Shown here: one piece after another, positions 39,259 to 57,442 of the stretch | How the letters are laid out: each line of letters opens with the position of its first letter | How positions within the stretch are numbered: position 1 is the first letter of the stretch | Assembly (NCBI RefSeq): GCF_019443985.1 | Contig: NZ_CP049303.1 | Coordinates: forward strand, 1,364,001-1,428,000 | Reading direction: 5' to 3' | Origin: Liquorilactobacillus hordei DSM 19519 | GTDB lineage: Bacteria > Bacillota > Bacilli > Lactobacillales > Lactobacillaceae | Length of the DNA stretch: 64,000 nucleotides | Notes under the pieces: model-generated | The model's input: the letters and a program-made list of their open reading frames with translations, nothing else | Databases searched by the model: none | What the model was told of the DNA's origin: nothing | Translations under genes and position numbers: made by a program

Positions 39259-39861
39259 ATGAGGGAAAAAAAATACAGTGCAGGATTAGTTTCACAAAGA
39301 TTCTGGTTTTATGAAACTAAGCAATACATTGAGATGCTTAATGACAATAAAATTGATAAAGAGATTAAACAGCTTAGTGATGAAGTAAATATTTTTGGGG
39401 CTGTTAGTACCAGTCGTGCAAAAGAAATCTGCAATGCAGCAAGACGTCGCGCTAATATTTTAGGAAAAGATATGCAAGAATTTTTTCCAAGTTTAAATAT
39501 TGATAATCAGAAAATTGTCATATTGATTTCAGTGCTTTTGTTGAATGATTTAATGTTAGAGTTCATGATGGAAGTTTACCAGTTTCAACTTCAAAGGGGT
39601 GTTTTGCAACTGACACCAACTGATTACAAGGCTTTTTTTTCTGAAAAGCAAAGAACCAATAAGGTGGTAGCTAGTTGGAAACCTTACACTTACAATCGTT
39701 TAGCAAGCAGTTATAAAAACTATTTACTTGAATCAGGTTTGATTCGCGAGACTAAGGGTGTTGATACTATAACACCCAAGATTTTAGATTCACGTGTTTT
39801 AAAATGGTTGAAATCTATTAATCGCTTGGACATTATAGAAGCAATAACTGGGGGAATATAG
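39259..39861 (+). CDS. brxA: BREX protein BrxA (DUF1819)
   Basis: 200 residues, start fixed by ggaggag. 'KKYSAGLVSQRFWFYETKQYIEMLNDN', 'SRAKEICNAARRRANILG' and 'LASSYKNYLLESGLIRE' follow the BrxA/DUF1819 pattern, a small DNA-binding helical protein that opens type 1 BREX loci. First gene of a tight run brxA-brxB-brxC-pglX (gaps of 3, 12 and 18 bp). The IS3 element ends about 140 bp upstream. No convincing promoter was identified in that gap. Confidence 0.93.
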   Translation: MREKKYSAGLVSQRFWFYETKQYIEMLNDNKIDKEIKQLSDEVNIFGAVSTSRAKEICNAARRRANILGKDMQEFFPSLNIDNQKIVILISVLLLNDLMLEFMMEVYQFQLQRGVLQLTPTDYKAFFSEKQRTNKVVASWKPYTYNRLASSYKNYLLESGLIRETKGVDTITPKILDSRVLKWLKSINRLDIIEAITGGI

Positions 39862-39864
39862 TAA

Positions 39865-40452
39865 ATGAAAAAAACTATAGAAGATCGTTTTAGTGTTCTT
39901 GACAATACAATTAAATCAGATGATTTTCTAGCAAATCGAGGATTGGGAAATGAAGTTGGTTACTATATTTTTGATTACGATCCCAAAGATGAATTGTTAG
40001 TTCGTGAACACATCCATTATTTAGAAAACCAAAACTCATTAATAGTCGATGGCTTCAAACTTCAAGTATTTAATCTTTACGAAATTATGATGGAACTTCT
40101 TGAGTCAAAAAACTATCTGAATATTATCTCTCAATGGGAGAAAAAACACGATATTATGTTTGTAGCTACCCGCATTAATCGTCTGTTGAAGATGGAAGAG
40201 TTTAATGATAGTGAGATGTACTTTACAGATTACATCAGACACCGTGTGGGAAATAACTCCGTTGTAATTTTAACTGGTATTGGTGAAATTTATCCGTTAG
40301 TTCGTGCACATTCAATATTGAACAAAATGCATTTAGTTTACACAAAACGACCTGTTATTATGATGTATCCAGGAGAATATGATCGTTTGAGATTAACCAT
40401 ATTAAACACGAATCGTGATGCTAACTACTATAGGGCATTCAGAATTGATTAG
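39865..40452 (+). CDS. brxB: BREX protein BrxB (DUF1788)
   Basis: 195 residues. 'RGLGNEVGYYIFDYDPKDELLVREHIHYLE', 'VILTGIGEIYPLVRAHSILNKMHLVYTKRPVIMMYPGEYDRLRLTILN' match DUF1788/BrxB, one of the core type 1 BREX genes of unclear biochemical role. Three bases after brxA. Confidence 0.93.
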   Translation: MKKTIEDRFSVLDNTIKSDDFLANRGLGNEVGYYIFDYDPKDELLVREHIHYLENQNSLIVDGFKLQVFNLYEIMMELLESKNYLNIISQWEKKHDIMFVATRINRLLKMEEFNDSEMYFTDYIRHRVGNNSVVILTGIGEIYPLVRAHSILNKMHLVYTKRPVIMMYPGEYDRLRLTILNTNRDANYYRAFRID

Positions 40453-40464
40453 GAGGGTAAGAAA

Positions 40465-43400
40465 ATGAAAATTAACGATATGTTTTTAAAAGATATTCAT
40501 CGAAATATTGAGGGCGTTATTACTGCTTCGAAAGCAACTGATGAACAAGTTTATCAGGAATTAGACGAATATGTTGTTACGAAGGAGCTTCAAGGGCATT
40601 TTAGGACATTTTTTGATGCCTATAAAAAGGGGATCACTGGAAATACAAACAAAATGGGTGTTTGGATTCAGGGATTCTTTGGTTCCGGTAAGTCTCACTT
40701 TTTAAAAATTCTTTCCTATATTCTTGAGAATAAAGAAATCAGTGGGAGAACGGCTTTTGATTTTCTTACTGAAGGTAATGAACAAACACGAAGAATTAAA
40801 GATCCGATGACTATCGCTAATATGGATTTGGCCGTTAAGACTCCAACAAATGTCATTCTCTTTAATGTAGAATCAAAGCATCAGACCGGGATTGAAGAAA
40901 AGAATAGCTTGGTAAATGTATTCCTGAAGGTTTTCAATGATAGCTTAGGATATTCGACTAATCCTAAAGTTGCTGATTTAGAACGACGTCTAGATAAAGC
41001 AGGAAAATATGGTGAATTTAAGGAAGTTTTCCAAAATAACAATGGAGTTGAATGGACTAAAGAACGGCATGAGGTTGATTTTATTCAGGACCCAGTAGTG
41101 GACACTTTGGTTAGTATCGGATATATGTCTGAAGATGCCGCAAAAACTTGGTTTAACAAATTGGAAGCTGACTATATTATCAGTATTGAAGAATTTGCTA
41201 TGATGGTTGAGGAGTACCTTCAGTCAAAAGGTAATAATGAACATATTGTGTTTTTGGTGGATGAAATTGGACAATACATTGGTGGAAATAGTGATTTAAC
41301 ACTGCAGTTACAAACTATTGTTGAAGAACTTGGTGACAAATCTCATGGCAAGGCATGGGTAATTGTAACTAGTCAACAAGCTATTGATAAGATTACTGAT
41401 ATAGCTGGTGCTGCGGCCTTAGATTTTTCAAAAATTAAAGGGCGTTTCGAAACTACATTATCACTTTCATCTGCCAATGCAGACGAAGTTATTCAGAAAC
41501 GTATACTTGCTAAAAATATAGCTGGTCAAGATTATTTAGAAGCCGTCTACCCAATTTATGAAAGTGATATTAAGCAAACCTTAATTTTTGAAGACAGTCC
41601 AGAGTTGAAGCTTTATAGTGGCTCTGAGAATTATGCGGATGTCTATCCGTTTATTCCTTACCAATTTAACCTATTAGCGAACATCCTAACACAAATCTCA
41701 AAACATTCCATTCAAGGAGCAAATCTCTCTCGGGGAGAACGTTCGTTACTCGCTTTTTTCAAAGAAACTGCTGAGCGAAATGCTGATAACGATAGTTCTG
41801 TTTTGGTCTCTTTAGATCAATTCTATCCGTCGCTTGAAAAATGGTTAAACGAAACTGACAATGCAAAGGTAATTAAACAAGCAGAAGAAAATACAAGAGT
41901 TGTACCGGATAAAAACGATCATTTCAACGTAGCAGTTTTGAAGGTTTTGTTTATGATTAAGTATGTGGATCAAAGTATCAAACCTACACTTAATAATATT
42001 ACAAATCTGATGATTCGGCACGTAAATGAAGATAAATTAGTTCTTCGTAAAAAAGTTGAAGCCGCTTTGAAGATCCTAATCAGTGAGAATTTGATTCGCC
42101 AAAACTTGAAAAATTATGTATTTCAAACAGATGAAGAACAAGAAGTGACGCGTTTGATTAATAATATCGAATTGAATGAGACTGATGTTGAAGATAGGCT
42201 TGCTCGAGATATTTTGGATGATAAAATTGGGCGAAATCAATTTTCATATAAGAACTCTCATGTAGTGGGGCGCATGTTTGAAAATCGTTACAACTTTACG
42301 TATAACTTTTATGTAGATGATTACGCATATCGCAAAAATAGTAATCCTAATCTGGAAGTTAAGATTATTACACCTGACTGTCCCTTATGGAATAATGAAA
42401 CACAACTTATCTTAGCAAGTACAAAAAATCAAATGTTGATTAAGTTGCCTGTAGATCAAGATTTTATGGCTCACATTAGAACATACTTAAAAGTTGAAAA
42501 GTACATTACCACTGCTAATACATCAAGTGCTATTAGGAACTTTGTAGCTGTTAAGGCTGAAAAAACATCTGAAAATCAAGAACTGAGTGATTCAATTAAT
42601 GTTCAATTAAATGATTTTCTAAAGCAAGCGACATTCTACTTTAATAACAATAAGTTAGAAGTTTCGGGTTCTGATTTTAAATCACTTCTCAATGATGCTT
42701 TGCAACAAATGGCTAACCTTGTTTATTACAAGAATGATTTGATAGATTCAGCTGTTTCTGAATCAGATATTAATAGGCTATTAAAATGTAGTGAGGATGA
42801 GTTACTTGCACATTCAGAAAATCAAAATGTAGTTAATGATGTTAAACAATATATTTTATTACAGGAAAATAAGAACCTTACTGTGACGATGAAAACATTA
42901 CGAGACAACTATCTTGATAAAGCACCATACGGATTTGTTAATGAAGATTTGGAGTGGGCAATTGCTCGCCTGTTTATGGAAGGAAGTATTAGTCTCTTTA
43001 AAAATGCAATACCACTAAATACTAACTCAGATATAAATGAAATTTCAAAGGCTATATCTGATCGCAAATCTCCAGAAAAAATTCGTGTGAAAATGCGTCA
43101 AAAGGCAAATGATGTCCAGAAAAAAATGGTTCATAATTTAGGTGAGGAATTATTTAAAAGTCGTAATATTGTAGACGAAAATAATGATGACACAACGCGC
43201 GTGCGATTCAATGAAAAAGCTCAAAGAATGATTTCTGAGCTGAATAGTTTCAAAGACACACCAGGTCATTATTATCCTCAATCAAGTGAAATTGGTAAAG
43301 CACTTGATGTCTTGCAACAAATCGTAAATGCTCGTGATACGAAATCATTCTTTGAGGTTTTAAAAAATAATGAAGAAGAGTTACTTGACTGGGCTGAAGA

Positions 43401-44112
43401 CTACGAAGATATTCATAACTTCCATGCTAGTAATCAAAAATCAATCTGGGATAAGGCAAGAGATTATATTAGCCGCATAGAAGATAGTACTATTCAAGAA
43501 CCCACCGATGAAATTAATTCAATCCTTGCAAGTATGAGAAATATCATGAAACAAACAATCCCATATCGTGATATTCCAAAACTAAGCGAATTGAATGGTC
43601 AGTATGAGACAGAATACATGAATTTCATGGAATCCAAGTCTAATGTTGCTGCTGATAAAATAAATACAATTAAGCAGGGTGTTCTAGAGGACTTGGACAG
43701 CCGCAATATTGGTGATAATTTTAAGACTGAAGTAGTTCAAAAATTTGATAATTTAATTCATACTTTAGCAAACGCGCAAACTCTTGACCAAATTGTGCTG
43801 CTCAAAGCTCAAGCTGATACATTGCGACATACTTTTACAAAAAAGTTCACTATAGAGGAAAATCGCAGACGTGAGGAAGCAGCTGAAAAAGCTGTACAAG
43901 GTGGTCAAGCTTATCTGACACCCACTAAATCAAGAGTTGTCCCAATTTCAGTTAAATCAGTTAAAAAGGTGAAAAATGTATATATGAAAGACCTGATTAA
44001 ACCTCGCCAACGGATTAATTCTGAAGCAGATGTTGATATTTTCGTAAATAACTTGAAACAAGAGTTACTTTCAAAATTAAATGATGATAATGAATTAGAT
44101 ATTCTACTGTAA
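40465..44112 (+). CDS. brxC: BREX ATPase BrxC
   Basis: 1215 residues, the usual size. Walker A 'GFFGSGKSHFLK' at about residues 70-81, Walker B 'HIVFLVDEIGQYIGG' near 265-279, then 'WVIVTSQQAIDKI' (sensor-like), 'KGRFETTLSLS' and, beyond 800, long helical and coiled-coil regions. This is the large P-loop ATPase shared by BREX systems and needed for exclusion of phage DNA. aggaggg before the ATG. Complete, with no internal breaks. Confidence 0.95.
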   Translation: MKINDMFLKDIHRNIEGVITASKATDEQVYQELDEYVVTKELQGHFRTFFDAYKKGITGNTNKMGVWIQGFFGSGKSHFLKILSYILENKEISGRTAFDFLTEGNEQTRRIKDPMTIANMDLAVKTPTNVILFNVESKHQTGIEEKNSLVNVFLKVFNDSLGYSTNPKVADLERRLDKAGKYGEFKEVFQNNNGVEWTKERHEVDFIQDPVVDTLVSIGYMSEDAAKTWFNKLEADYIISIEEFAMMVEEYLQSKGNNEHIVFLVDEIGQYIGGNSDLTLQLQTIVEELGDKSHGKAWVIVTSQQAIDKITDIAGAAALDFSKIKGRFETTLSLSSANADEVIQKRILAKNIAGQDYLEAVYPIYESDIKQTLIFEDSPELKLYSGSENYADVYPFIPYQFNLLANILTQISKHSIQGANLSRGERSLLAFFKETAERNADNDSSVLVSLDQFYPSLEKWLNETDNAKVIKQAEENTRVVPDKNDHFNVAVLKVLFMIKYVDQSIKPTLNNITNLMIRHVNEDKLVLRKKVEAALKILISENLIRQNLKNYVFQTDEEQEVTRLINNIELNETDVEDRLARDILDDKIGRNQFSYKNSHVVGRMFENRYNFTYNFYVDDYAYRKNSNPNLEVKIITPDCPLWNNETQLILASTKNQMLIKLPVDQDFMAHIRTYLKVEKYITTANTSSAIRNFVAVKAEKTSENQELSDSINVQLNDFLKQATFYFNNNKLEVSGSDFKSLLNDALQQMANLVYYKNDLIDSAVSESDINRLLKCSEDELLAHSENQNVVNDVKQYILLQENKNLTVTMKTLRDNYLDKAPYGFVNEDLEWAIARLFMEGSISLFKNAIPLNTNSDINEISKAISDRKSPEKIRVKMRQKANDVQKKMVHNLGEELFKSRNIVDENNDDTTRVRFNEKAQRMISELNSFKDTPGHYYPQSSEIGKALDVLQQIVNARDTKSFFEVLKNNEEELLDWAEDYEDIHNFHASNQKSIWDKARDYISRIEDSTIQEPTDEINSILASMRNIMKQTIPYRDIPKLSELNGQYETEYMNFMESKSNVAADKINTIKQGVLEDLDSRNIGDNFKTEVVQKFDNLIHTLANAQTLDQIVLLKAQADTLRHTFTKKFTIEENRRREEAAEKAVQGGQAYLTPTKSRVVPISVKSVKKVKNVYMKDLIKPRQRINSEADVDIFVNNLKQELLSKLNDDNELDILL

Positions 44113-44130
44113 TGGATAGGAGTGTTTTAA

Positions 44131-46806
44131 ATGGATAAAAAAGCAATTAAAACTTTTGCTATGGAGTCTCGGATGAAACTCCGTGACAGTGTTATCAATA
44201 AATTGGCTAAGTTGGGTATTACAGATAGTGGTATTGAAGAAGTTACCAAGATTGGGAACGACATTATCGAAATTCCCTCAAATGGTGAACGTTTTACAGG
44301 TAAAGATGTTATTAATCGTACTAAGTTAGTTGAAGTGTTAAATTCACGTGAAAAGCAGATTGATCCAAAAGAAAAGACACGTGTAACAATCGCTTTTGAC
44401 AACTTAGTTGAAGAAGTATCATACACTTGGTTTAATCGGTTAATCGCTATTCGCTTTATGGAAATAAATGGCTATTTACCAGGTCATCAACGTGTTCTTT
44501 CAAGTGAAGTTGTTGGGAAAAAAGAACCTGATATCATCACAAGTCTATTAGATTCGGAGTTGTATCAGGAAATGGATGCAGCAACTCAAGGCAAAGCAAT
44601 GAAATTAATATCAGTTAACTCCGCTGATGCAGTAGATGAACTTTATCAACTTGTTTTTATCAAACAATGTAATAGTTTGAACCAACTGTTACCCGATTTA
44701 TTTGAACATATTGATGACTACACGGAACTATTATTTACAATCTCGTACATAGATGATAATGGAGTGCTTGCAAACTTGTTGACGATCCCAGAAGAAGATT
44801 TCAACGTGGAAAAGGGCGGTCAAGTAGAAATTATTGGATGGATGTACCAATATTACAATACTGAGCCCAAAGATAAGGTATTTGCTCGTGGTCATCGTAA
44901 GATTCGTGCGGATGAAATCCCCGCTGCAACACAATTATTTACACCAGACTGGATTGTACGTTATATGGTACAAAATTCACTTGGTCGTTACTATATTGAC
45001 CAAAAGATGGCTAATCCTGCGGAAACACGTACTGAGAAAGAAATTGCAGCTGAATTTGGGTGGAAATATTATTTACCAACTGCTGAACAACCTGAAGATG
45101 TACAGTTAAAAATTGCAGATGAACGTAAGAACAGAAGTGTTATTGCTTTACAAGAACTAAAACTGATTGATCTTTCAATGGGAAGTGGTCACATCCTTGT
45201 GTATGCTTTTGATGTTCTAATTCAGTTATACATCGCCGAAGGATATAGAAAACGGGATGCTGCAGAGTTAATTCTGATGAATAACCTTTACGGACTAGAT
45301 ATTGATAAGCGTGCCTTTCAATTGTCCTACTTTGCCTTAATGATGAAAGGACGTCAATATTCAAGACGGATTTTATTTAAGGATATCAAGCTAAATGTTT
45401 ATGCTGTACCAGATAATTTAGGAATTGGTGAAACTGAACTTCAATTATTGAACATGGAATTTCCTAATCAACAAACTGCTCATCAAGATTTGTTGCGGTT
45501 AGTTGATGGATTCAAGGATGGCGCAGATTTAGGATCGTTGATTGAGTTTAAGGGAATCAATTTTGATAATCTAAAAGCTGGATTCGATAAAGGTACTGTG
45601 TCATTTTTGAATCATGCAATCAGTAAGATGGTACATGTTGGGGAGCTGTTACAACAAAAGTATGATATTGGAATTACGAATCCACCTTACATGAGTAGCT
45701 CAAGTATGAATAAAGAATTATCAAATTTTGTGAAGAAAAACTATCCAGATAGCAAAAGTGATTTATTTGGTGTATTTATTGAGCGGATTGAAAAGATGGT
45801 TAAATCATCAGGTTATTATGCAATGATTACGCAACATGCCTGGATGTTTTTATCTAGTTTTGAGAAACTACGTGGCAAAATTAATAGACAAACTATAATC
45901 AATATGACTCATTTAGGTACTCATGCTTTTGAAGAAATTGGTGGTGAAGTTGTTCAAACTACAGCTTTCGTAATGTCACCACTAAAATATAAAAACTATG
46001 TTGGTAGTTACTTAAGGCTTGTTGATTTCACAAATCACAAACTTAAAGAAACAAAAGTACTTGAAGCTATTGAAGCTGGAAATGCAGATTATTTTTATTC
46101 TACTATTCAGAATAATTTTACTAAAATTCCAGGACAGCCAATTTCGTATTGGGTAAGTGAAAACCTAATTCATGATTTTATTGTAGGAAAACAATTGGGT
46201 AATATGGCAGATGTAAAAAAAGGAATGTTTACTGGTCAAAATGATTTGTTCTTCAGGCAATGGACCGAACCTTCATTTAATAAAATCCAATTTGATGTCT
46301 GTAATAATGCAGAGATACAAAAAGAAGGTTACATTCCAATAAACAAAGGTGGAGATTTTAGACGATGGTATGGAAATGATGAGTTTGTAATGAAATTTGA
46401 TTCCATTCATTATAGAATGATTGAAAGTAACAAAGGACACCGTTCTCCGTATTTTTATTTTAAACCTTGTGTCGAATGGACCAAAATTACTAGCGGAAAA
46501 TTGGCACTTCGTTATTCTGAAAGTGGATTTGTAAATAACGATGCAAGTATGGCAATATATTCGGATGATGATAGCCTATTGAAGAAAATTCTTGGGATTA
46601 CAAATACAAAAGTTAGTCAGTTATGTGTATCTGCACTTAATGAAAGTATGAATTATACGGCTGGTGACATAGCTAGGATTCCTATAATATTTACTAACCA
46701 AGATAATGCGATATCCGCAATAGCTAACAAGTGCATTGAACTGTCCCAACTTGATTGGAATTCATATGAAATTTCTTGGAATTTTAACAGGCACCCGCTA
46801 ATATAG
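44131..46806 (+). CDS. pglX: BREX adenine-specific methyltransferase PglX, N-terminal and catalytic part (active cassette)
   Basis: 891 residues. Residues 1-340 are the constant N-terminal domain. Motif I 'SMGSGHILVYAFD' (GSGH at 351-354), 'NNLYGLDIDKRAFQLSYFALMMKGR', motif IV 'NPPY' at 517-520, then a target-recognition region to the end '...WNFNRHPLI'. A full PglX is about 1200 residues. The missing C-terminal domain is encoded separately at 51911-52846. A 22-bp segment inside the gene (45143-45164) recurs inverted at 50817-50838, so everything from residue 338 on can be exchanged. PglX marks host DNA by N6-adenine methylation in BREX. Confidence 0.93.
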   Translation: MDKKAIKTFAMESRMKLRDSVINKLAKLGITDSGIEEVTKIGNDIIEIPSNGERFTGKDVINRTKLVEVLNSREKQIDPKEKTRVTIAFDNLVEEVSYTWFNRLIAIRFMEINGYLPGHQRVLSSEVVGKKEPDIITSLLDSELYQEMDAATQGKAMKLISVNSADAVDELYQLVFIKQCNSLNQLLPDLFEHIDDYTELLFTISYIDDNGVLANLLTIPEEDFNVEKGGQVEIIGWMYQYYNTEPKDKVFARGHRKIRADEIPAATQLFTPDWIVRYMVQNSLGRYYIDQKMANPAETRTEKEIAAEFGWKYYLPTAEQPEDVQLKIADERKNRSVIALQELKLIDLSMGSGHILVYAFDVLIQLYIAEGYRKRDAAELILMNNLYGLDIDKRAFQLSYFALMMKGRQYSRRILFKDIKLNVYAVPDNLGIGETELQLLNMEFPNQQTAHQDLLRLVDGFKDGADLGSLIEFKGINFDNLKAGFDKGTVSFLNHAISKMVHVGELLQQKYDIGITNPPYMSSSSMNKELSNFVKKNYPDSKSDLFGVFIERIEKMVKSSGYYAMITQHAWMFLSSFEKLRGKINRQTIINMTHLGTHAFEEIGGEVVQTTAFVMSPLKYKNYVGSYLRLVDFTNHKLKETKVLEAIEAGNADYFYSTIQNNFTKIPGQPISYWVSENLIHDFIVGKQLGNMADVKKGMFTGQNDLFFRQWTEPSFNKIQFDVCNNAEIQKEGYIPINKGGDFRRWYGNDEFVMKFDSIHYRMIESNKGHRSPYFYFKPCVEWTKITSGKLALRYSESGFVNNDASMAIYSDDDSLLKKILGITNTKVSQLCVSALNESMNYTAGDIARIPIIFTNQDNAISAIANKCIELSQLDWNSYEISWNFNRHPLI
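45143..45164 (+). repeat. Left copy of 22-bp inverted repeat (recombination site) inside pglX
   Basis: Starts TTGCTTTACAAG and ends AACTAAAACT. Encodes 'ALQELKL' in frame (residues 339-345), just before motif I. Exact inverted match at 50817-50838. Sequence similarity drops at both edges. The in-frame match means that inversion produces an uninterrupted hybrid PglX. Confidence 0.93.
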
Positions 46807-46840
46807 TAACCATCCACCAGCATAGCTGGTGGCTTTTTTA

Positions 46841-48636
46841 GGGGCTGTGCCATAAGTCCCTAAGTGAAAGAGCTTCACCAGAGAAAGTAATGATTTTTCT
46901 GGTGAAGCTCTTTTGGTATAATTAAAAATAAAAAAGCACTGGTTGGAGCCAGTACTTTCAAAAACAATACCCCTATAGAAAGGATAATCAAAATGTACAA
47001 TAATTATAACATAAATCAGACTGTACTTAGTATTAAAACTGACTGGGAGCCAAAAGAAAATCATCCTGCACGGATGATTAATCAAATAGTTGAAGACCTT
47101 AAAATTAATGATCCTTACATCTTTGGACGACCGCGTAAGTATGATCTGCGTGTACTTTTAAAATTAATTTTGTTTGCGTACACAAAAGGTATCTTTAGTA
47201 GTCGCCGTATTAATACCTTGGCAGAGGAGAATTTGGCAGCCCGTTGGCTGACACAAGAACAGGTTCCAGCCTACCGAACAATTTGTCGTTTTAGAATTTC
47301 AGATGAAGTTGAGAGCTTGATTAATCAATGTATTCTAAAACTAACCAAATATCTGAAACAAAACAATTTTATTGATGAAGTTACTTTTATTGACGGGACT
47401 AAAATTTTAGCTGATGCCAATAAATATAGTTTTGTTTGGCGTAAGAATACGATTCGTTTTGACAAGCTTAATCGCTCTGCGATTATAACCCTTCTGGAAG
47501 AATTAAATGACGCTAAGTTTAAGTGTCAGCTCCCAGCAGAGACAGATCTTACTTTAGAAATGCTTGATGAAATTACCTTGCGGTTAGAAAATGACTTGAA
47601 AGATTTGAATAAAAAGATTGAAAAAGAACATATCTCTCCAAACCCAGACAAGTCAAGGCGTCGAAAACTAAAATCTTTAAAACGAAAACTTAAGTTACGG
47701 CAAACTAAATTATTAGCTCATAAAATACAAACCAGAATTTATGGTAAAAGAAATAGTTATTCAAAAACAGATCATGATGCAACTTTCATGCGTGTTAAGG
47801 AAGATCCAATGCTCAACGGACAGCTAAAACCGGCTTATAATCTACAAATCGCCACAAGTAAACAATTTGTAACTGCCTTCGGCATTTTTCAAAATCCAGG
47901 AGATACCAAAACATTAATTCCTTTTTTACAGCAACAAAAAGCAGCTGGAACTTTAGGTAAGTATATTGTGGCTGATGCAGGATACGGTTCAGAATCAAAT
48001 TATCGATATCTCGAAGATGAATTACCTGAACATACAGCGTTAATTCCATATGGGACAATGTTAAAAGAAAATAGTCGCAAATGGAAAAGTGATGACCGTA
48101 AGGTCATGAATTGGGCGTATCATCCTAAAGACGATTATTTTATTGATCTGCAGGGAGTTAGATTTAGTTTTTATGCTTACCGTAAGCGCAAAGATAAGTA
48201 CGGATTTGTACGTGAATTTAAAGAGTATCAGGCAAACAAATACGATAACGATTTTAAAATTGATCACCGAGCATTCACTAAAAACGGAAATCCTCGTAAA
48301 ATAAGTATTAATAGCGCATGGGAGTATTTCAAAGCTAAGGAACGCAAGTTGCTTTCAAATCACCAAACTGGTTCAATTTACGGACAACGTAAAATAGATG
48401 TTGAATCAGTTTTTGGTGGATTGAAGGCTTGTTTGGGTTTTAAAAAATTTTCGGTTAGAGGTCTTGAGAAGGTAAAAAGGGAAGCTGGAATTGCCTTGAT
48501 GGCAATGAATATTAGAAAATTGGTGGCGAAAGGCACCAATTATAACTGTTTTATAAACCAAAAGAAGAGATTAGTGAAAATCAAAGAACGATTTTCACTA
48601 ATCTCTTCTATTTTGAAGGACTTATGGCACAGCCCC
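46841..48636 (+). mobile_element. IS1182-family insertion sequence, copy 2 (1796 bp)
   Basis: Terminal repeats GGGGCTGTGCCATAAGTCC at both ends, same length as the copy at 25233-27028. Inserted just after the T-run of a hairpin downstream of pglX. Inside the left end is a terminator hairpin (gagcttcaccag / ctggtgaagctc, 46870-46912) that shields the transposase from outside transcription, followed by a TATAAT (46918-46923) and the leader. Confidence 0.93.
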
Positions 48637-48663
48637 TTGCCTCAACGCAAAAAGTCCCCTTAA
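46993..48663 (+). CDS. IS1182-family transposase
   Basis: 556 codons, of which about 548 lie inside the element. Domains as in the other copy: N-terminal DUF772-like 'FGRPRKYDLRVLLKLILFAYTKG', catalytic Asp in 'EVTFIDGTKILADANK', 'ADAGYGSE', and Glu in 'DVESVFGGLKA', with a basic coiled insertion around residues 190-245. aaagga before the ATG. The frame passes through the right terminal repeat ('LWHSP') and stops only in flanking DNA ('LPQRKKSP'), so the element lacks its own stop codon. A 19-bp-stem hairpin overlaps the last codons (about 48566-48614). Confidence 0.93.
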   Translation: MYNNYNINQTVLSIKTDWEPKENHPARMINQIVEDLKINDPYIFGRPRKYDLRVLLKLILFAYTKGIFSSRRINTLAEENLAARWLTQEQVPAYRTICRFRISDEVESLINQCILKLTKYLKQNNFIDEVTFIDGTKILADANKYSFVWRKNTIRFDKLNRSAIITLLEELNDAKFKCQLPAETDLTLEMLDEITLRLENDLKDLNKKIEKEHISPNPDKSRRRKLKSLKRKLKLRQTKLLAHKIQTRIYGKRNSYSKTDHDATFMRVKEDPMLNGQLKPAYNLQIATSKQFVTAFGIFQNPGDTKTLIPFLQQQKAAGTLGKYIVADAGYGSESNYRYLEDELPEHTALIPYGTMLKENSRKWKSDDRKVMNWAYHPKDDYFIDLQGVRFSFYAYRKRKDKYGFVREFKEYQANKYDNDFKIDHRAFTKNGNPRKISINSAWEYFKAKERKLLSNHQTGSIYGQRKIDVESVFGGLKACLGFKKFSVRGLEKVKREAGIALMAMNIRKLVAKGTNYNCFINQKKRLVKIKERFSLISSILKDLWHSPLPQRKKSP

Positions 48664-48708
48664 TGCGCCCAACAAAACACTACCAACCGCTACCGCATTA
48701 TTTTAATC

Positions 48709-48954
48709 TCATTTTGACTTTTTAAATGGATCAATATATTCCCGTTTACTAATTCTATCATTGACCTGATCCTCTGCTTCTTGTTCTTGAATGTATTTCT
48801 GGATAATTCTTTGATTTAACCCAACCATGCTAACATAATATCCGCGTGCCCAAAAACTTCTATTGCCGTAATTATATTTTAAATTGGCATGTCTTTCATG
48901 AATTATAACGGCGCTCCTCCCTTTCAAATATCCCATAAATCTAGAAATATTCAT
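48709..48954 (-). pseudogene. IS200/IS605 TnpA (Y1 transposase), N-terminally truncated
   Basis: 81 codons matching the C-terminal half of Y1 transposases ('SRFMGYLKGRSAVIIHERHANLKYNYGNRSFWARGYYVSMVGLNQRIIQKYIQEQ'). The tyrosine helix is present, but the first about 70 residues with the HUH metal motif are missing, so it is inactive. Confidence 0.85.
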
Positions 48955-49070
48955 CTAAAGTAAAAACTCCCTTTCGATTTTAGTCTTGGTTGGTAGCCAA
49001 AAACTATTATATCGAAAGGGAGTTTTTCACCCCCACAAGTAAAACTTGTGGTTTATTCGCAAATATAAAT

Positions 49071-49113
49071 AAAAAAGAAGCAAATATTTTATTTAAGTGC
49101 TTGCTTCTTTTTA
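49071..49113. terminator. Terminator after the inverted pglX cassette
   Basis: Stem aagaagcaa / ttgcttctt with A- and T-runs on the two sides, directly after the stop codon of the minus-strand cassette. After inversion it would follow pglX. Confidence 0.8.
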
Positions 49114-49114
49114 T

Positions 49115-50838
49115 TCAAATTAAAGGGTGTCGAGAAAAGTCCCATGATTGTTCAAAGGAATCCCACTCTGCTTTAGAAATGTTTATATTGGTTTTCGCAA
49201 ATTCTTCAATTATACAATTTGTAGTTTTTACCAAAGGTAATGCGTTTATATTTCCCTTTTGGAAGTTCAATGTTGGATTTAATAAATTTAAATAGTATTT
49301 TACTACCTTGCTGTTAAGATAAGATAATACATATTTTTTTTTGCACTCTGGGACAATTGCAAAAGATCCACTAGCATCAAATAAAAATCCCTCAACACAA
49401 TATCGAGCAGCAAAATTTCTACTCGAAAGTGATGACCAAGTGATTTGGGAATGAAATATATAATCTAGATTAAACGCATGTGCTGGAATTTTCCCATTTT
49501 TATTTTTCAGATTTCTTATACAGCTCCCATCATTTTCCCAGTTAATAACAAATTCATTATTTCCATACCATCTTTTGAATTCACCGCCTTTACTATAAGG
49601 AAACCACTTTTTCTCTGATGCTGATGCTGTTTGTCTGTTTGGTACTAACAAGCCTATTTTATCTCTTCCAATTTCATGCCACATTCTTATGAAATGTTTA
49701 TTATTACCAGTAATCATACCTGCCCTAGTGTGGTAAATATCTTCAAAACTGGCATTACTTGCAAAAATATTAAAGGTATTTTCGCTTACCCAAAACGATA
49801 TCGGACTACCCGGAATTTTTGTAAAACTCTCCTGGTTTGTTTGGTAAACATAACTCACAGTTGGATTCTTAACTCCCTCAAGAACCTTCGCTTTTTGAAC
49901 TTCCATACCACCACGAAAATCAGACAGTTTGAAATAATTTCCAACAGGTTCATTTTTGGTATTTTTAATTGTAAAACAACAAACTGGAACAGTGGCCTCT
50001 TCAAATGCCGAGTATTCCATTTGAACTAGGTTTGAGAGACTTTTATCGGTAATTAAAAAAGTGCGTAGTTCTTCGTAAGACTTAATGAACATCCATACAA
50101 ATGGTGTCATAAATCCTGCATATCCATCCTTAACAAGCATTTGGCTGTTCATTTTGATAAATACAGAGAACAAGTCTGTTTTAACTTCTGGATAATTATT
50201 TTTGACGTATTTATCAAGTATATTACTCATTTTATTTAAGTACGGAGGATTAGTTACCACGGTTGTATATTTTGAGACAATGACTTCAACAATGTCGAGA
50301 AGTTTTGCTATTTTTTCATGAGCTTCAGGTAATTGATAAAGAATATCCATATCAGAAAAATTATCAAATACATTTACAAACTCACGCAATTCAGCAATTT
50401 TTTTCTTTTTTACACTGTTAAAGTGCAAGACTGATCCAATTTCTGTTGCATGAGCAAACTGTTCAAGAATAGATTTAAGTTGATTGAGTTTTTTTGTGAA
50501 TTCAGTCCGTGGAAGAGTTGAGAGTTCATCTAAACGCTCAAAATATTCAGTTGGAATATCTTCAGAGTCGATAAATTGATATAAATTCAACTTTACATTT
50601 TTATTTAGAATTTTCCGATTGTATTCCCGACCTTTCATCATGATAGCAAAATAAGCCAATTGATAGGCACGTTTATCAATTTCTAAACCGTATAAATTAT
50701 TAGTCATAATGAATTCAGCTGCATCACGCTCACGATAGCCTTCAGCAACGTAAAGCTGCATGAATACGTCAAAAGCATAAACTAAAATATGCCCAGATCC
50801 CATAGCATTATCCAAAAGTTTTAGTTCTTGTAAAGCAA
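49115..50838 (-). CDS. Alternative PglX catalytic/target-recognition body (silent inverted cassette)
   Basis: About 574 codons from the inverted repeat to the stop. Without inversion it lacks the PglX N-terminal domain and a proper start; a TTG at 50815 gives 566 residues. It parallels pglX from residue 338: 'ALQELKLLDNAMGSGHILVYAFDVFMQLYVAEGYRERDAAEF', 'NPPYLNKM' (motif IV) and '...WDFSRHPLI' followed by stop. Similarity to the active cassette is high through motif I and the end, and low in between, where the target-recognition region differs. It therefore encodes a second DNA specificity. Confidence 0.9.
50817..50838 (-). repeat. Right copy of the 22-bp inverted repeat
   Basis: Exact reverse complement of 45143-45164. 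It lies at the head of the alternative cassette and 2 bp from the stop codon of the recombinase gene (50841-50843). Confidence 0.93.
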
Positions 50839-50840
50839 AA

Positions 50841-51776
50841 TCATTCTGATAGTGCTTTCATCATAATTCTCATGATCAGTTTTGTTTCTCGTTCCTCCAT
50901 TTCTTTAATGATATGAAGATACACACTCTGAGTTGTGGTTACATCTTTATGTCCAAGTCTTCGACTAACACTTAAAATATTGACATCTTTAAACAAAAGA
51001 ATAGAAGCATGAGTGTGTCGTAAACCATGAAACGAAATAGGGGAGATATTGAGTTTAGTACAAAGCTTTTCGAGATGACGGTTAATGGTAGCACTAACAG
51101 GCAATCTACCATCTTCATTTTCACAAATTTTTTGCTGTGGTTTTTTAAATTTTCTGATACGCATCATATTTTTGATTACGTGGAGTGTTTTTGTATCTAC
51201 GTCAATGGTTCGAACAGAACTTGAGTTTTTTGTCGGTTTGAAACCAGTATGATATTTGTAATCCCAAGTCTTATTTACAATGATAAGTTTATTTTTAAAA
51301 CTAATATCTTCAACAGTCAATCCGAGGACTTCTGCGAACCTAAGTCCAGTCATCGCCGAGAGATAAATAATAAAATCATAAGAGTTAGTCGAAATTTTAG
51401 TTGCTCGAATTAAGGCTTGCCATTCTGAATAAGAGTGGAACATTACTTTTTCTTTAACTTTTTCACGACCAGTTATAATCGCTTTACGCGTAAAATCCGT
51501 GTCAATAATTCCTTCTTCAAGTGCGTCAATGACTGCTGCCCGAATTTGTTTATGAAATCCTGAAGTGGTGCGTTTAGCATGAGTTTTTGCAAATCTATTC
51601 AAAACAGTTTGGTAGTTTTGTCGAGTTACCTTGTTGAATTTGATATCACCAAAGTATTTTTTAATATGTTGATGTGTGTTTTGGTACTTTACGTAAGTAA
51701 CTGAAGAAATTGCTGGTTTTTTGAATGTTTCCATCCATTCAAAAAAATAGTTATCGAGTGTCAAGTTTGTAGTCAT
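50841..51776 (-). CDS. Tyrosine recombinase (phage-integrase/XerD-like), PglX invertase
   Basis: 311 residues with aggagg before the ATG. N-terminal SAM-like core-binding domain (about 5-85), catalytic domain with Arg in 'AMTGLRFAEVLGL', 'H-x-x-R' in 'ISFHGLRHTHASIL', His in 'LGHKDVTTTQSVYLHI' and the final Tyr in the same stretch. All catalytic residues are present. Its 3' end touches the inverted repeat and no att-like phage genes are nearby, so it most likely inverts the pglX segment. Recombinases beside a second partial pglX are known from Lactobacillus BREX loci. Confidence 0.92.
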   Translation of the reverse strand: MTTNLTLDNYFFEWMETFKKPAISSVTYVKYQNTHQHIKKYFGDIKFNKVTRQNYQTVLNRFAKTHAKRTTSGFHKQIRAAVIDALEEGIIDTDFTRKAIITGREKVKEKVMFHSYSEWQALIRATKISTNSYDFIIYLSAMTGLRFAEVLGLTVEDISFKNKLIIVNKTWDYKYHTGFKPTKNSSSVRTIDVDTKTLHVIKNMMRIRKFKKPQQKICENEDGRLPVSATINRHLEKLCTKLNISPISFHGLRHTHASILLFKDVNILSVSRRLGHKDVTTTQSVYLHIIKEMEERETKLIMRIMMKALSE

Positions 51777-51873
51777 TTGAATGTTTCTCCTCCTAATTAT
51801 TCATACATAATAAGAATATGACTTTACAGCAAAAAAATTAACAACTAATAATACAAATGTTATAAAAACACAG

Positions 51874-51903: not shown

Positions 51904-51910
51904 TTGTAAA

Positions 51911-52846
51911 GTGGCTATATTAATCAAAGATAAATTCGAGGCATGGAAGAAGGAATCGCAAGATCGCTTTAACCAGTTGAAATCAAATGAAGAGGAATTA
52001 AACAAAATTTTTATTAAACTTTATGGGTTACAAGATGAGCTTGATTATCATGTAGATGATAGAGAAATATCTGTTTCTTTAGCGGATCGTAAACGTGATA
52101 TTAAATCGTTGATTAGTTATGCAGTTGGATGCATGTTCGGGAGATACTCATTAGATGAAGAAGGACTTATCTTTGCTGGTGGAGACTTCGATATATCCCG
52201 TTACCATAAATTTAAGCCAGATGTAGATAACATTTTATTAATTACGGATGATGAATATTTCCAAGATGATCAAAGTGATATTGTAATAAAATTCATAGAA
52301 TTCATCTCTACTGTCTATGGAAAAGAAACATTAGAAGAGAATTTAGACTATATTTCAGATGTTCTACCCGGTAATGGAACAAGTCGTGCAAAGATTCGAA
52401 AGTATTTTGTATCTAAATTCTATACTGACCATATGACAACTTATAAAAAACGTCCAATCTATTGGCAATTTGATTCTGGAAAAGCAAATGGTGTGAAAGC
52501 ATTAATGTATTTACATCGATATGATGAGAACTTGCTTGGACATTTACGCATTGATTATGTTACAAAATTGAGTCAAGCTTACAATTCTCGAATTGAATTA
52601 CGTGAAAGTCAAAAATTAGCAACATCAAATGCTGGGCAATCAGCTCAATACGATAAAGAAATTAGCAAAATTAAAAAACAATTAAAAGAGCTGTATGAGT
52701 TTGATGAGAAGCTTGGACACCTTGCTTTAAAGAAAATTTCTCTTGATTTGGATGATGGAGTAATTGTGAACTATGATAAACTACAACGTGATCCAGATAG
52801 CGGAGAGAGATTTTTGATTTTGACTAAAGGTGTAAAAGAACCTTAA
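51911..52846 (+). CDS. PglX C-terminal domain as a separate protein
   Basis: 311 residues from GTG. Opens 'DKFEAWKKESQDRFNQLKSNEEELNKIFIKLYGLQDELDYHVDDREISVSLADRKRDIKSLISYAVGCMFGRYSLDEEGLIFAGGDFD', which is the start of the C-terminal region of standard PglX proteins, where it directly follows the 'RHPL' segment. Here both catalytic cassettes stop at 'RHPLI'. 891 plus 311 residues equals a normal PglX, so the enzyme is split and this half is shared by both forms. Contains a coiled coil near 225-262. First gene of the operon with pglZ (11-bp gap). Confidence 0.88.
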   Translation: MAILIKDKFEAWKKESQDRFNQLKSNEEELNKIFIKLYGLQDELDYHVDDREISVSLADRKRDIKSLISYAVGCMFGRYSLDEEGLIFAGGDFDISRYHKFKPDVDNILLITDDEYFQDDQSDIVIKFIEFISTVYGKETLEENLDYISDVLPGNGTSRAKIRKYFVSKFYTDHMTTYKKRPIYWQFDSGKANGVKALMYLHRYDENLLGHLRIDYVTKLSQAYNSRIELRESQKLATSNAGQSAQYDKEISKIKKQLKELYEFDEKLGHLALKKISLDLDDGVIVNYDKLQRDPDSGERFLILTKGVKEP

Positions 52847-52857
52847 GGAGAAAAAAG

Positions 52858-55398
52858 ATGGCAGATTTAAATTTAAGTCAAATTCAAACTCGTTTGAATG
52901 AGCTTTTCGTAACTTATGGAGAACGTAAACTCATTTTTTGGTTTGATCCAGAAAAAGAATTTGAGGAAGATATTGATAAAGCACGTATTCAACTAAGGGA
53001 TGCCAAAATCTACAAACTTGAGCCACATACTCAGCTTATGACTAAACGATTCTTTGAAATCGAAGATACAAAAAATAACTATCTAGTCTATGCTCCGTTT
53101 AAAAAAATGGATGATGATGATGAAAATAATCATCTATTGAGCATATTAAAATATTCAAGTCAATTTAGTGCAGATCGGATTTCGCTTATAATGACACAAC
53201 TTAATATTCCATCGGATTTACACGATATAATGAAAAGTCATGCCAAGTTCTTCAAAGCAAAATCCCGTATATCTGCTTTTGAAAAACTCATGACTACTGA
53301 AATCAAATCTAAACAGGAACTTGAAATAACATTAATAGCTGTTGTGGCAAAAGCAAACATGGCTCAAATTTATAGTATTATTCAAGCTTTGTTGGTTGAT
53401 TATGCCAATGATTCAAGCAACTTGTATGATCAACTAGCGAGTTTTGATTTACAAGAGGTGCTCTGGAAATATATCTCTAAATACTATGGGTATACTTCTG
53501 AGAAACCAACAATTCAAAAATTAGCCATCTCATTTTTTGCAAATGCTTTCTATGGCCAGCTAGGACATCAAGAATTACCACCTAGCTTAAAAGAATATGA
53601 AGTTCTTAATCAAACAACTGCAATTGTTTCGTTTATGGATGGTGTGATGAACGATTCCCGTTACATGGTAATATTTGATAAGTTAAGCAGAGATATCTAC
53701 TGCCTGATTGGAGGAGACAAACTTCTTTCTAAAGTGCCTATCGAAGAATTATTGGCAGCGGATATATTTGAGCCGATTCACGATCTGGTAATTCAATATT
53801 ATATTCGTCAATTAATGAGCGGAGACTTAACACCAACAATTAGTGGAATAACATTGTCAGATGCATTGATACTTAAAGAACGGTCACATTTTGGTCTTAA
53901 ATATGTGCATCAATATGAAGCAATTTTGAATGCTCAGAAGATACTAAAATATGTCTTAAATACTAATTATAACCAGTTTACATCTGTTGTTAAGGATTAT
54001 GAAACATCATCTTATTTGGTAGATCGATATTATCGTAAGTTTATTTGGCATCTAGATAAATTTGCTAGACAAGATCAGTTTACTAAACTACAAATGCTGG
54101 TTGAAAAACAATATAGGTCATTTTTGGATGAGATTGGTCGCTTGTGGAATGACTTATTACAATTAGATGAAAGAACATCAATGCTTGACTTCTACGATAA
54201 ATTTGCAAAAAATAAAATAAAAACTGTTGTAATCATTTCAGACGCGTTACGTTATGAAATAGCGAAGGAAATTCAACAATTTCTTGAACAAGAAAAAAAA
54301 TACTCGGCAAAGATGAATACAATTTTCACAGTATTGCCTTCAGTAACGGAATTCGGTAAGGCTGCTTCATTACGTGGAAGTCATGGATCTTATGAATATA
54401 TTAAAGATACGGATATTCGAGTAAATGGTCTGAAAACACAAGGTACAGCTGCAAGAGACAAAATTCTTAAAGAAAAAAATTCAAATTCATTAGCAACTAC
54501 TTATGAAAAAGTTATGGAGAAGTCAAGTGCAAAAGAACTCCGTGACGTGTTTAACGGTCAGGATGTGATTTATCTTTATCATGATAAAATAGATGCCACT
54601 GGGGATAAAATTGGAACAGAGCCTCAAGTATTTGATGCAGTAGAAAAGACGATTAATGAACTGATAACACTTATTCAATTTATTTCAAATGGTGCAAATG
54701 TTTATCGCTTTATTATCACAAGCGATCATGGATTTATTTACACAAGATCTAGGGTGGAGGAACATGAAAAAATTGAGAATCCATCTAGTTCTGATTTAGA
54801 TCATATTGAGCGACGGTTCATTATTAGTAAAAACCATTATGATGAAATTGGTATTGGTTCTGTAAAACTAGGAGATGTATTGCATAATGAAGATGAACGT
54901 TATGTTCATTTTCCAGAAACTTCAGCTATTTTCAAAAAGGCTGGTGGTGGTCAGAACTATGTTCATGGTGGTTCATCCCCTCAGGAGATGATAGTTCCTG
55001 TATTGGAAATAGGTGTAGCTCGTGGCTCAGCACAAAAAGAAACAGTTACAATTCAATTAATGACTGCTAAACGAAAGATTATTGGCTTATCTGTTGCTTT
55101 GGAGTTTTATCAAACAGAAGCGATTAGTGATTCCGTGACAAAAGCTCAATATTCGCTTTATTTTGAAAATAAGAATGGAAATCTAATTACCAACCAAAAC
55201 ACTTATTATGCTGACTCAACTTCTAGTCAATCGAGTGAACGATTCACGAATTTTACCTTTGATTTCGTAAATCGTAATTACGATACAAACGAAAAAGTTT
55301 ATTTAGTAGTAAAAAATGAAGAAACAAAAGTTGAAACTGAGAGAGTTGAATTTACCATTGATAATCCATTTGCTGGTGGATTTGGATTCGATATTTAG
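52858..55398 (+). CDS. pglZ: BREX protein PglZ (alkaline phosphatase superfamily)
   Basis: 846 residues. N-terminal 'YGERKLIFWFDPEKEFEEDI' typical of type 1 PglZ. PglZ domain with metal-site Asp in 'TVVIISDALRYEIAKEI' (about 456) and 'DHGF' in 'ITSDHGFIYTR' (about 620), plus 'HGGSSPQEMIVPVLEI'. C-terminal beta-rich domain. aaggag before the ATG. The defining gene of BREX. The stop is 10 bp before brxL. Confidence 0.95.
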   Translation: MADLNLSQIQTRLNELFVTYGERKLIFWFDPEKEFEEDIDKARIQLRDAKIYKLEPHTQLMTKRFFEIEDTKNNYLVYAPFKKMDDDDENNHLLSILKYSSQFSADRISLIMTQLNIPSDLHDIMKSHAKFFKAKSRISAFEKLMTTEIKSKQELEITLIAVVAKANMAQIYSIIQALLVDYANDSSNLYDQLASFDLQEVLWKYISKYYGYTSEKPTIQKLAISFFANAFYGQLGHQELPPSLKEYEVLNQTTAIVSFMDGVMNDSRYMVIFDKLSRDIYCLIGGDKLLSKVPIEELLAADIFEPIHDLVIQYYIRQLMSGDLTPTISGITLSDALILKERSHFGLKYVHQYEAILNAQKILKYVLNTNYNQFTSVVKDYETSSYLVDRYYRKFIWHLDKFARQDQFTKLQMLVEKQYRSFLDEIGRLWNDLLQLDERTSMLDFYDKFAKNKIKTVVIISDALRYEIAKEIQQFLEQEKKYSAKMNTIFTVLPSVTEFGKAASLRGSHGSYEYIKDTDIRVNGLKTQGTAARDKILKEKNSNSLATTYEKVMEKSSAKELRDVFNGQDVIYLYHDKIDATGDKIGTEPQVFDAVEKTINELITLIQFISNGANVYRFIITSDHGFIYTRSRVEEHEKIENPSSSDLDHIERRFIISKNHYDEIGIGSVKLGDVLHNEDERYVHFPETSAIFKKAGGGQNYVHGGSSPQEMIVPVLEIGVARGSAQKETVTIQLMTAKRKIIGLSVALEFYQTEAISDSVTKAQYSLYFENKNGNLITNQNTYYADSTSSQSSERFTNFTFDFVNRNYDTNEKVYLVVKNEETKVETERVEFTIDNPFAGGFGFDI

Positions 55399-55408
55399 GA
55401 GGAAGTTA

Positions 55409-57442
55409 GTGGATCAAGTCATTTTAGATAAACTGGTAGCAAATTTTCCCGGAAAGATTGTTCGGAAAGATTTAACCAAAAAAATTAAAGAAGGCGCGAA
55501 TGTTCCTGTTTATGTGTTGGAATATTTATTGGGAATGTACGCTTCATCTTTGGATGAACAACTCGTTGAAAAGGGAGTAGAAAATGTTAAAAATATTTTA
55601 GCCCGCAATTATGTTCGCCCAGATGAAGCTGAGAAAGTGAAAGCAAAGATTCGTGAAAATGGTGGTTACACGGTTATTGATAAAGTCAGTGTTTCCTTGA
55701 ATGAGAGAAAAGATCAATATGAAGCCGAATTTTCAAACCTAGGTCTGTCGGCTGTTCGTATTAGTGAGGAATACCCTAAAAAATATGATCGACTACTGGG
55801 TGGCGGTATTTGGTGTATCGTTCAAATGGAATACTGGTTTGATGAAAATGATCAGCAAAATTCACCATTTATTGCAAGAAAAGTAGATCCAATTCAAATG
55901 CCGGGTCTTGACATTGAAGAGTTTAAAAGAGGAAGAGCTGCCTTTACTGAAAAAGAGTGGATTGATGTTGTTCTCAGATCTGTTGGAATGGAACCAACTC
56001 AATTTGATGAACGAGTTAAATGGTTGCACTTAGCACGTTTAGTTCCTTTAATTGAAAATAATTTCAATTTGTGTGAACTTGGTCCACGTGGTACTGGAAA
56101 GTCGCATATTTATAAAGAAATTTCACCAAATTCAATATTAGTATCTGGTGGTCAAACTACGGTAGCTAATTTATTTTATAACATGGCTCGCCGTACGATG
56201 GGGTTAGTCGGTATGTGGGATACGGTTGCATTTGACGAAGTAGCAGGAATTAATGTAAAAAATGGTGATTTGATTCAGATTATGAAAGATTACATGGCAT
56301 CTGGATCATTTGCTCGTGGTAAAGAAGAGAAGAATGCCTCAGCTTCAATGGTGTTTGTCGGAAATATTAATCAAAGTGTAGATGTAATATTAAAGACATC
56401 GAACCTATTTGAACCATTCCCTGAAAAAATGGGCACAGATTCTGCTTTTCTCGACCGAATACATTGTTATCTTCCAGGGTGGGAAATTCCAAAATACCGG
56501 CCTGATTTTTTTACGAATGACTATGGCTTCATTACAGATTACTATGCGGAAGTAATGCGAGAATTACGCAAAACAACTTACAGTGATGCTATTGATAAGT
56601 ATTTTAAACTTGGTTCTCAGTTGAACCAACGCGATACGGTTGCAGTAAAGAAAATGGTGTCAGGGTTGATTAAGTTAGTTTATCCGCACGGTAAATTTGG
56701 TAAAAAAGAAGTTGAAAAAGTTCTTAAATTTGCAATTGAAATGCGGCGACGTGTTAAGGAGCAACTTAAGAAAATTGGTGGTATGGAATTCTTCGATGTT
56801 AATTTATCATATATTGATTTAGAAGAAAATCATGAAGAGTATGTGTCAGTTCCTGAGCAAGGTAGTGGGAAACTAATTCCTGAAGGTAGTGGGAAACCAG
56901 GTCATATCTACTCAGCATCAATTGGTACAAGTGGACGTATTGGAGCATTTAAGTTTGAAACACAGATGGTGGCTGGAAATGGTAAATTTAAGGCCACAGG
57001 ACTGGGGAGTGATTCAGGAGCTAAAGAAAAGGCCGATTCAGCTTACAAATACTTAAATGCCAATGCAGTGACAATCAATTCATCTATTTCGATGATTACC
57101 CATGATTTTGTATTTAACACGCAGGATCTGAATGGTGTTGGGAATCCTATATTTTTGTCATTGCCAACAATGATTGCTTTATGTTCTGTCTCCTTGAATA
57201 AGCCTGTTGTTGCAAGTATGGCTGTCTTAGGTGACATAACAATTGGTGGTACTTTAATTCGCGTGACAAACCTTGCCGATATGATGCAAGTGGCACGCGA
57301 TTCAGGGGCCAAGAAAATCTTAGTACCAATGGCGAATGCAGCAGATTTAGCAACGGTACCACCCGAATTGATGTCAACGTTCAATATCATCTTTTACAGT
57401 ACACCTGAAGATGCAGTATTTAAAGCTTTAGGTGTTGAATAA
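55409..57442 (+). CDS. brxL: BREX Lon-like protein BrxL
   Basis: 677 residues from GTG at 55409, fixed by taggagga. A longer in-frame ORF overlaps pglZ and is not used. N-terminal DNA-binding region, AAA+ Walker A 'GPRGTGKSHIYK' (225-232) and Walker B-like 'WDTVAFDEVAG', then a Lon-type C-terminal domain ('ISMITHDFVFNTQDLNGVGNP...SKPVVASMAVLGDITIGGTLIRV...KKILVPMANAADL'). The catalytic Ser-Lys pair of active Lon proteases is not obvious. Last gene of the BREX locus. Confidence 0.93.
   Translation: MDQVILDKLVANFPGKIVRKDLTKKIKEGANVPVYVLEYLLGMYASSLDEQLVEKGVENVKNILARNYVRPDEAEKVKAKIRENGGYTVIDKVSVSLNERKDQYEAEFSNLGLSAVRISEEYPKKYDRLLGGGIWCIVQMEYWFDENDQQNSPFIARKVDPIQMPGLDIEEFKRGRAAFTEKEWIDVVLRSVGMEPTQFDERVKWLHLARLVPLIENNFNLCELGPRGTGKSHIYKEISPNSILVSGGQTTVANLFYNMARRTMGLVGMWDTVAFDEVAGINVKNGDLIQIMKDYMASGSFARGKEEKNASASMVFVGNINQSVDVILKTSNLFEPFPEKMGTDSAFLDRIHCYLPGWEIPKYRPDFFTNDYGFITDYYAEVMRELRKTTYSDAIDKYFKLGSQLNQRDTVAVKKMVSGLIKLVYPHGKFGKKEVEKVLKFAIEMRRRVKEQLKKIGGMEFFDVNLSYIDLEENHEEYVSVPEQGSGKLIPEGSGKPGHIYSASIGTSGRIGAFKFETQMVAGNGKFKATGLGSDSGAKEKADSAYKYLNANAVTINSSISMITHDFVFNTQDLNGVGNPIFLSLPTMIALCSVSLNKPVVASMAVLGDITIGGTLIRVTNLADMMQVARDSGAKKILVPMANAADLATVPPELMSTFNIIFYSTPEDAVFKALGVE

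Follow-up and report, generated by a model that had tools for sequence, protein, structure and literature searches.

We analysed a 64,000-nucleotide stretch of Liquorilactobacillus hordei DSM 19519 (contig NZ_CP049303.1, positions 1,364,001 to 1,428,000; hereafter the window) and found that it very probably carries a type 1 bacteriophage exclusion (BREX) system with a split PglX methyltransferase that a recombinase can invert, one complete enzyme being swapped for another. In the proposed mechanism, the constant part of the gene, covering the N-terminal domain and the first stretch of the methyltransferase (MTase) domain, would meet an exchangeable body at a 22-bp site, and a neighbouring tyrosine recombinase would invert the 5.65-kb segment between the two copies of this site. 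Inversion would join the other body in frame and silence the first, and the product of a separate gene for the C-terminal domain (CTD) would associate in trans with the body expressed at the time. Because the CTD gene lies outside the segment and would act in trans, one inversion would lead from a complete enzyme to a complete enzyme. In some relatives, a hinge site and cassettes that hold a target-recognition domain (TRD) only would add exchange of the TRD alone. A first-pass annotation of this DNA had already described the BREX system, the site, the second body and the recombinase, and these parts of its account of PglX stand; the split CTD gene, the recurrence of the layout in Lactobacillales and the hinge exchange point of the relatives had not been noticed.

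The BREX locus is complete, spanning 39259-57442 with brxA, brxB, brxC, pglX (as two genes), pglZ and brxL, and all six genes were found by PADLOC profiles, in agreement with the earlier type 1 assignment. The expressed specificity gene, pglX (44131..46806, + strand), encodes 891 amino acids (aa), matches positions 1-869 of the PADLOC PglX profile PDLC02521 (1174 positions) and reaches its natural stop after ..FNRHPLI, without a CTD. It comprises the constant N-terminal part (N part) and, as delimited by profile and body comparison, the active body A (45165..46806, +), which holds the remaining MTase domain and the TRD. The inverted open reading frame (ORF) at 49115-50815, which had been taken for a second pglX body, was indeed recognised as a PglX body by PADLOC, with profile positions 312-869 covered (E 2e-186). 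This silent body B (49115..50816, − strand) also consists of the remaining MTase domain and TRD, lacks the N part, ends with ..FSRHPLI and is 37% identical to body A.

The repeat that joins constant and exchangeable parts, recombination site 1, proved to be exact over 22 bp, with its left copy (TTGCTTTACAAGAACTAAAACT) at 45143..45164 (+), equivalent to residues 303-309 of Escherichia coli BrxX, and its right copy at 50817..50838 (−). Between pglX and the inverted stretch 48640-51800, no exact match is longer than this repeat; longer exact inverted repeats in the window fall elsewhere, one of them being an insertion sequence (IS). The left copy codes for ALQELKL directly before MTase motif I (..LSMGSGH). 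The 20-bp core of the site occurs exactly twice in the 2.44-Mb genome, with one further place at 3 mismatches, and a backwards control pattern of the core also gave one genomic match at ≤3 mismatches. When inversion between the two copies was simulated, the 891-aa PglX was converted into an intact 911-aa ORF reading ALQELKL-LDNAMGSGH..SRHPLI, which upholds the in-frame join to the alternative body claimed by the first-pass annotation. Homology between bodies A and B begins at the site itself: 20 of 20 bases match within it and 12-15 of 20 in each of the next four windows inside, compared with just 4-7 of 20 in the five 20-base windows (100 bases) outside. The 5.65-kb segment between the site 1 copies is probably invertible.

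The tyrosine recombinase gene (50841..51776, −) lies directly outside this segment, its stop codon 2 nt from the right copy of site 1. Its product matches the Pfam family Phage_integrase (E 9e-23), and R146, K169, H250, R253, H276 and Y286, which we take to be the catalytic residues (R-K-H-R-H-Y) of the family, are all present; the recombinase at the segment edge thus appears intact, as had been proposed. It is presumably the enzyme that inverts the segment, and it would presumably still be active in this strain. A paralogue with 43% identity lies at G000:C3:713330-714208 in the same genome and possibly marks another invertible locus. Relatives of the recombinase (46% identical) also adjoin an S-subunit gene in two L. 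salivarius plasmids (L009 1281-4372 and L011 1281-4372), where the integrase lies by a small S-subunit gene and an N-6 MTase gene and the group sits just upstream of an unsplit BREX locus; the L009 integrase carries L in place of the R253 seen in the others.

The CTD is encoded by a separate constant gene of 311 aa (51911..52846, +), divergent from the recombinase gene and upstream of pglZ, which covers positions 878-1165 of the PglX profile. In comparison with solved structures, pglX aligned to residues 3-870 of E. coli BrxX and the CTD family to residues 944-1187. An AlphaFold2 model of the CTD (mean pLDDT 87.1) gave six matches at E ≤ 0.001, all of them to BrxX/PglX chains (TMq 0.81-0.86), and the BrxX metal-site residues D997, D999, I1001, D1012 and Y1113, together with K1076/K1077, are kept in the CTD profile. 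Judged by profile match and predicted fold, ORF 51911-52846 is the PglX C-terminal domain in a gene of its own, outside the invertible segment. The domains of BrxX are given as N-terminal domain 1-210, MTase 211-650, TRD 651-837 and CTD 838-1205, with hinge loops at 638-675 (PMC11842806). These borders place site 1 inside the MTase domain, ahead of motif I, and the point of the split a short way past the TRD.

We further studied whether the split recurs in other genomes. Among the best 120 of 7991 scored matches to the CTD, the first 55 measured 308-344 aa at 69-100% identity, and the sources of the homologues include Latilactobacillus sakei, Enterococcus italicus, E. lemanii, Vagococcus and Lactococcus. 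Similarly, among the best 120 of 7997 scored matches to PglX, the first 86 were of split-type length (83 at 873-916 aa and three shorter, at 819, 781 and 760 aa), and 28 of the next 34 measured 1204-1269 aa. PglX of the window's type is also carried by food isolates (L. sakei, L. curvatus). The order brxC-pglX-silent body(−)-recombinase(−)-CTD(+)-pglZ was found in all five complete split loci, namely our own and those of Lactobacillus sp. UCMA15818, E. lemanii, genome G371 and L. faecis, and a sixth split locus, from a Streptococcaceae metagenome-assembled genome, has the same order as far as its contig reaches. The recombinase adjoins site 1 in six of the six split loci read. CTD frames of 312-322 aa occurred in 3 of 35 CTD-bearing genomes (395 genomes sampled from the order) and in 4 of 50 (397 sampled from the family); the two samples overlap, and the short frames in G587, G430 and G528 were left out of these split counts. 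The split form is a minority of CTD-bearing genomes in both samples. In three smaller groups, genomes with a CTD numbered 2 of 105, 2 of 26 and 2 of 6, and PglX was found in 2 of 14 genomes of the own genus. A search for plasmid-borne split loci gave no CTD match of at least 60% identity in 72,556 plasmids, the 265 matching records all falling short of this value; among the 25 plasmid matches listed of these 265, 21 lay under annotated pglX genes. The recurrence in homologue lists, genome samples and complete loci rules out that the split is a local oddity. Two ORFs are present where most relatives have one, as would be expected if the separate CTD were the remnant of a broken pglX in a dead system, but the uniform length and identity of the best 55 of the 120 listed CTD matches, the kept metal-site residues and the same gene order across genera make such decay highly improbable.

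Phase variation of pglX is itself already known. The classical invertible pglX loci of Lactobacillus (L. rhamnosus GG; the L. brevis CP019745 and L. plantarum NZ_CP035176 plasmids; genome G403) share with the window a type 1 BREX system, a second, partial and inverted pglX and a related tyrosine recombinase (46-47% identical). An excerpt of one report describes a full (1198 aa) and a partial (743 aa) PglX with an integrase between them, analogous to L. rhamnosus GG (PMC7513527), and an excerpt of another describes two pglX genes in opposite orientation in L. rhamnosus GG (PMC6256098). However, the classical pglX is one gene for 1184-1215 aa, whereas here the CTD is separate and outside the segment; the classical recombinase lies between the bodies and inside the segment, whereas here it lies outside; and the classical left repeat begins near residue 148-196, whereas here the site stands before motif I. 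At the classical loci of L. brevis (L008), L. plantarum (L010) and G403 (L165), the CTD was found once, inside the single full-length gene, and a single simulated inversion left proteins of 905-954 aa without a CTD in three of three. The same simulation at the split loci gave complete proteins of 890-911 aa in five of five (our own, L012, L015, L150 and L124), with the CTD gene untouched. By these computed lengths, the split would let an inversion exchange whole enzymes where it would otherwise drop the CTD, and this is presumably its purpose. At L165, an exact 77-base repeat at the border of body and CTD could restore the CTD in a second step, which would allow exchange in two steps.

The sequences of relatives independently indicate that bodies change places. 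Across the complete split loci, body types A and B share 34-41% identity; the active body is of type A in our own locus, E. lemanii and G371 and of type B in UCMA15818 and L. faecis, and the other type is silent each time. Exact inverted repeats in the coding frame that join alternative specificity sequences upon simulated inversion are present in the window and in four relatives. In the databases, 44 candidate bodies without an N part were found, which we term silent because they lack it, and 43 were left after P0220 was dropped as an N-terminal piece. Five of the 43 are, as protein records alone, at least 99.8% identical to a body with an N part, and the without/with pairs are P0241/P0197, P0247/P0174 (two records named E. 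faecalis), P0252/P0194, P0271/P0198 and P0277/P0215. Inversion could instead be an on/off switch, in which body B would be non-functional and its entry would turn methylation and defence off. Frequent disruption of PglX elsewhere has been taken as BREX regulation, according to an excerpt of one study (PMC9122589), but the B-type bodies are active in UCMA15818 and L. faecis, and body B of the window covers profile positions 312-869 and keeps the GSGH and NPPY motifs; we therefore consider an on/off switch unlikely.

The exchange of whole bodies is, in our reading, the work of the recombinase at site 1. The two copies of the site differ at 0 of 20 positions within each of the five loci and at a mean of 2.2 positions between loci; among 120 left/right pairings, two reached zero mismatches, and these came from two loci with the same site. 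Within loci, the inner 80-base flanks differ by 26, 3, 24, 26 and 22 bases and the outer 40-base flanks by 22-27. Bodies could alternatively be swapped by RecA-dependent homologous recombination or gene conversion. The bodies of UCMA15818 share exact stretches of 50 and 66 bp, in proteins of the L. murinus type four blocks with identical stretches between them occur in 14 of 16 combinations, and pneumococcal spnIII recombination is, by the title of the report, independent of all known pneumococcal site-specific recombinases (PMC6620402). On the other side, four of the five loci are exact over only 22-27 bp at site 1 while their inner 80 nt differ at 22-26 positions, homology in the window stops at the site, and a recombinase stands beside site 1 at every split locus read. 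We regard RecA or gene conversion as an improbable substitute for the recombinase.

Recombination within bodies is also suggested by the comparison of their MTase and TRD parts. After 14 unparsed records had been dropped from 130 bodies, the 116 kept included 17 pairs that share the TRD at ≥95% with MTase parts below 70%, and 30 pairs that share the MTase part at ≥97% with TRDs below 60%, these pairs not being independent of each other. For instance, P0174 and P0197 of E. faecalis carry near-identical TRDs on A-type and B-type MTase halves. Moreover, the 27 records of the L. murinus type (one named L. intestinalis; within P0124-P0172), in which the four blocks are two-state, have three nearly identical N parts. 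These block combinations could reflect rapid recombination or assembly chimeras; they rest on protein records, as a genus search for L. murinus DNA found no such locus, and we weigh them lightly because several contigs have equal listed length and chimeras are possible.

A putative second exchange point of relatives lies at the border of MTase domain and TRD. In genome G371, an exact 24-base inverted repeat links this border in the active body to a TRD-only cassette, and in L. faecis a related 24-base repeat links the silent body to a TRD-only cassette. Simulated inversion at the G371 repeat gave an 887-aa PglX altered from residue 679. In BrxX numbering, this hinge site lies at about 671-677, at the edge of the hinge. 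The window has a degenerate copy in one body only: site 2 (GTAGGAAAACAA) at 46183..46194 (+) in active body A (L013 position 8183; BrxX about 671-677), with no counterpart found by the site 2 scan at the same place in silent body B. The arrangement resembles the hsdS shufflons of type I restriction-modification systems, with which it shares a recombinase of the locus, further inverted specificity genes and repeats before the first TRD and between TRDs, as described in an excerpt of one study (PMC7394358), and the repeats of G371 and L. faecis may provide a second exchange site as in hsdS. However, hsdS shufflons move an S subunit, whereas here the catalytic MTase half and the TRD of a BREX enzyme are moved. 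The main text of a 2026 survey of BREX diversity contains no word starting with 'split', 'invert' or 'recombinase' (PMC12839542), and our searches of open-licence literature turned up neither a split PglX nor a hinge-site shufflon. This combination of a divided PglX, a constant CTD in its own gene and shuffling at two levels seems to be a novel form of pglX phase variation.

Several points weigh against a complete-to-complete switch in this strain. The strain is known in one orientation only, and the nearest listed N part is 82.5% identical, so the databases contain no further strain of this species in which the other orientation could be seen. Different target motifs for the two TRDs are suggested by their divergence. 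The database bodies without an N part are protein records from relatives, outside their DNA context. ALQELKL is kept within two substitutions in 85 of 86 listed PglX relatives and exactly in 41, so the identity of the site 1 copies is partly protein conservation; chance or mere codon conservation as the whole cause was rejected, since the copies match at every base within a locus and the loci differ. According to an excerpt of work on Salmonella PglX, the C-terminal domain was not expressed on its own, the domain so named there including the TRD (PMC11341690). Lastly, an IS element (46839..48638, +), with a DDE transposase and 20-bp terminal inverted repeats (AGGGGCTGTGCCATAAGTCC), sits inside the invertible segment between the bodies and breaks neither. 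Its insertion is recent, because 3 of 1800 bases separate it from a second copy at 25231-27030.

The recent IS, the diverged bodies and a hinge site of which body A keeps a degenerate copy and body B showed none could mean that an ancestral switch no longer inverts here and that body A alone is used. We consider such a locked relic rather unlikely: the site copies are identical, the reading frames of the recombinase and of both bodies are uninterrupted and keep their motifs, and the IS leaves both bodies whole. Lying within the segment, the IS would flip along with it.

Splits without inversion were also found. A genome scan confirmed at least 550 stretches, of which 80 named loci were retained. 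The CTD frame was shorter than 520 aa in 15 of the 80, two of them at contig edges, and three of the other 13 were the Lactobacillales described above. In the remaining ten, several of which are short contigs, tblastn found no inverted body and no recombinase relative, and one (L090) looks more like a broken gene than a split. Epulopiscium L040 and Acetatifactor L021 resemble the window in that the CTD is its own ORF with N-MTase-TRD genes upstream, but differ from it in that no inverted body and no recombinase relative were found. At L040 (4257-10903), two tandem N-MTase-TRD genes (812 and 830 aa) are followed by a single 300-aa CTD gene; as far as its gene order goes, one CTD gene for two specificity genes suits a shared subunit.

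Around the split pglX, the BREX genes of the window are brxA (39259..39861, +; PADLOC BrxA, E 3e-50), brxB (39865..40452, +; BrxB, E 5e-59), brxC (40465..44112, +; BrxC, E 0), pglZ (52858..55398, +; PglZ, E 2e-220) and brxL (55316..57442, +; BrxL, E 0). The true start of brxL is probably downstream, because the PADLOC match begins at residue 36. A terminator-like hairpin lies 3′ of pglX (46814..46832, +), one of nine such sites in 44000-53000 against 4.6 expected from shuffles. Elsewhere in the window, exact inverted repeats of up to 619 bp between 6296-7916 and 24596-27998 probably belong to another mobile element.

On the wider proposal we are evenly divided: many Lactobacillales BREX systems may be two-subunit modular MTases, with a constant C-terminal subunit, a stock of MTase-TRD bodies, one recombinase and sites of two sorts (ahead of motif I and at the hinge), a combinatorial engine in which the split makes every single inversion on-to-on and not on-to-off. 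The natural split marks where PglX can be cut, and the CTD looks like a separable subunit. The naturally recombined MTase and TRD modules are ready-made pairs for decoding BREX recognition. Type 1 BREX is characterised by m6A marks on an asymmetric motif and by the exclusion of phage that lack them. Because BREX uses PglX both for self-marking and for attack, a one-step switch of specificity would be risky, as the old marks must not trigger the new enzyme, and a locus built for a switch from complete enzyme to complete enzyme makes this question of old marks directly testable. A flip would swap the middle of the DNA-marking enzyme for a spare version; the methylation motif and phage range would presumably change with it, which could help the bacteria change the viruses that they exclude.

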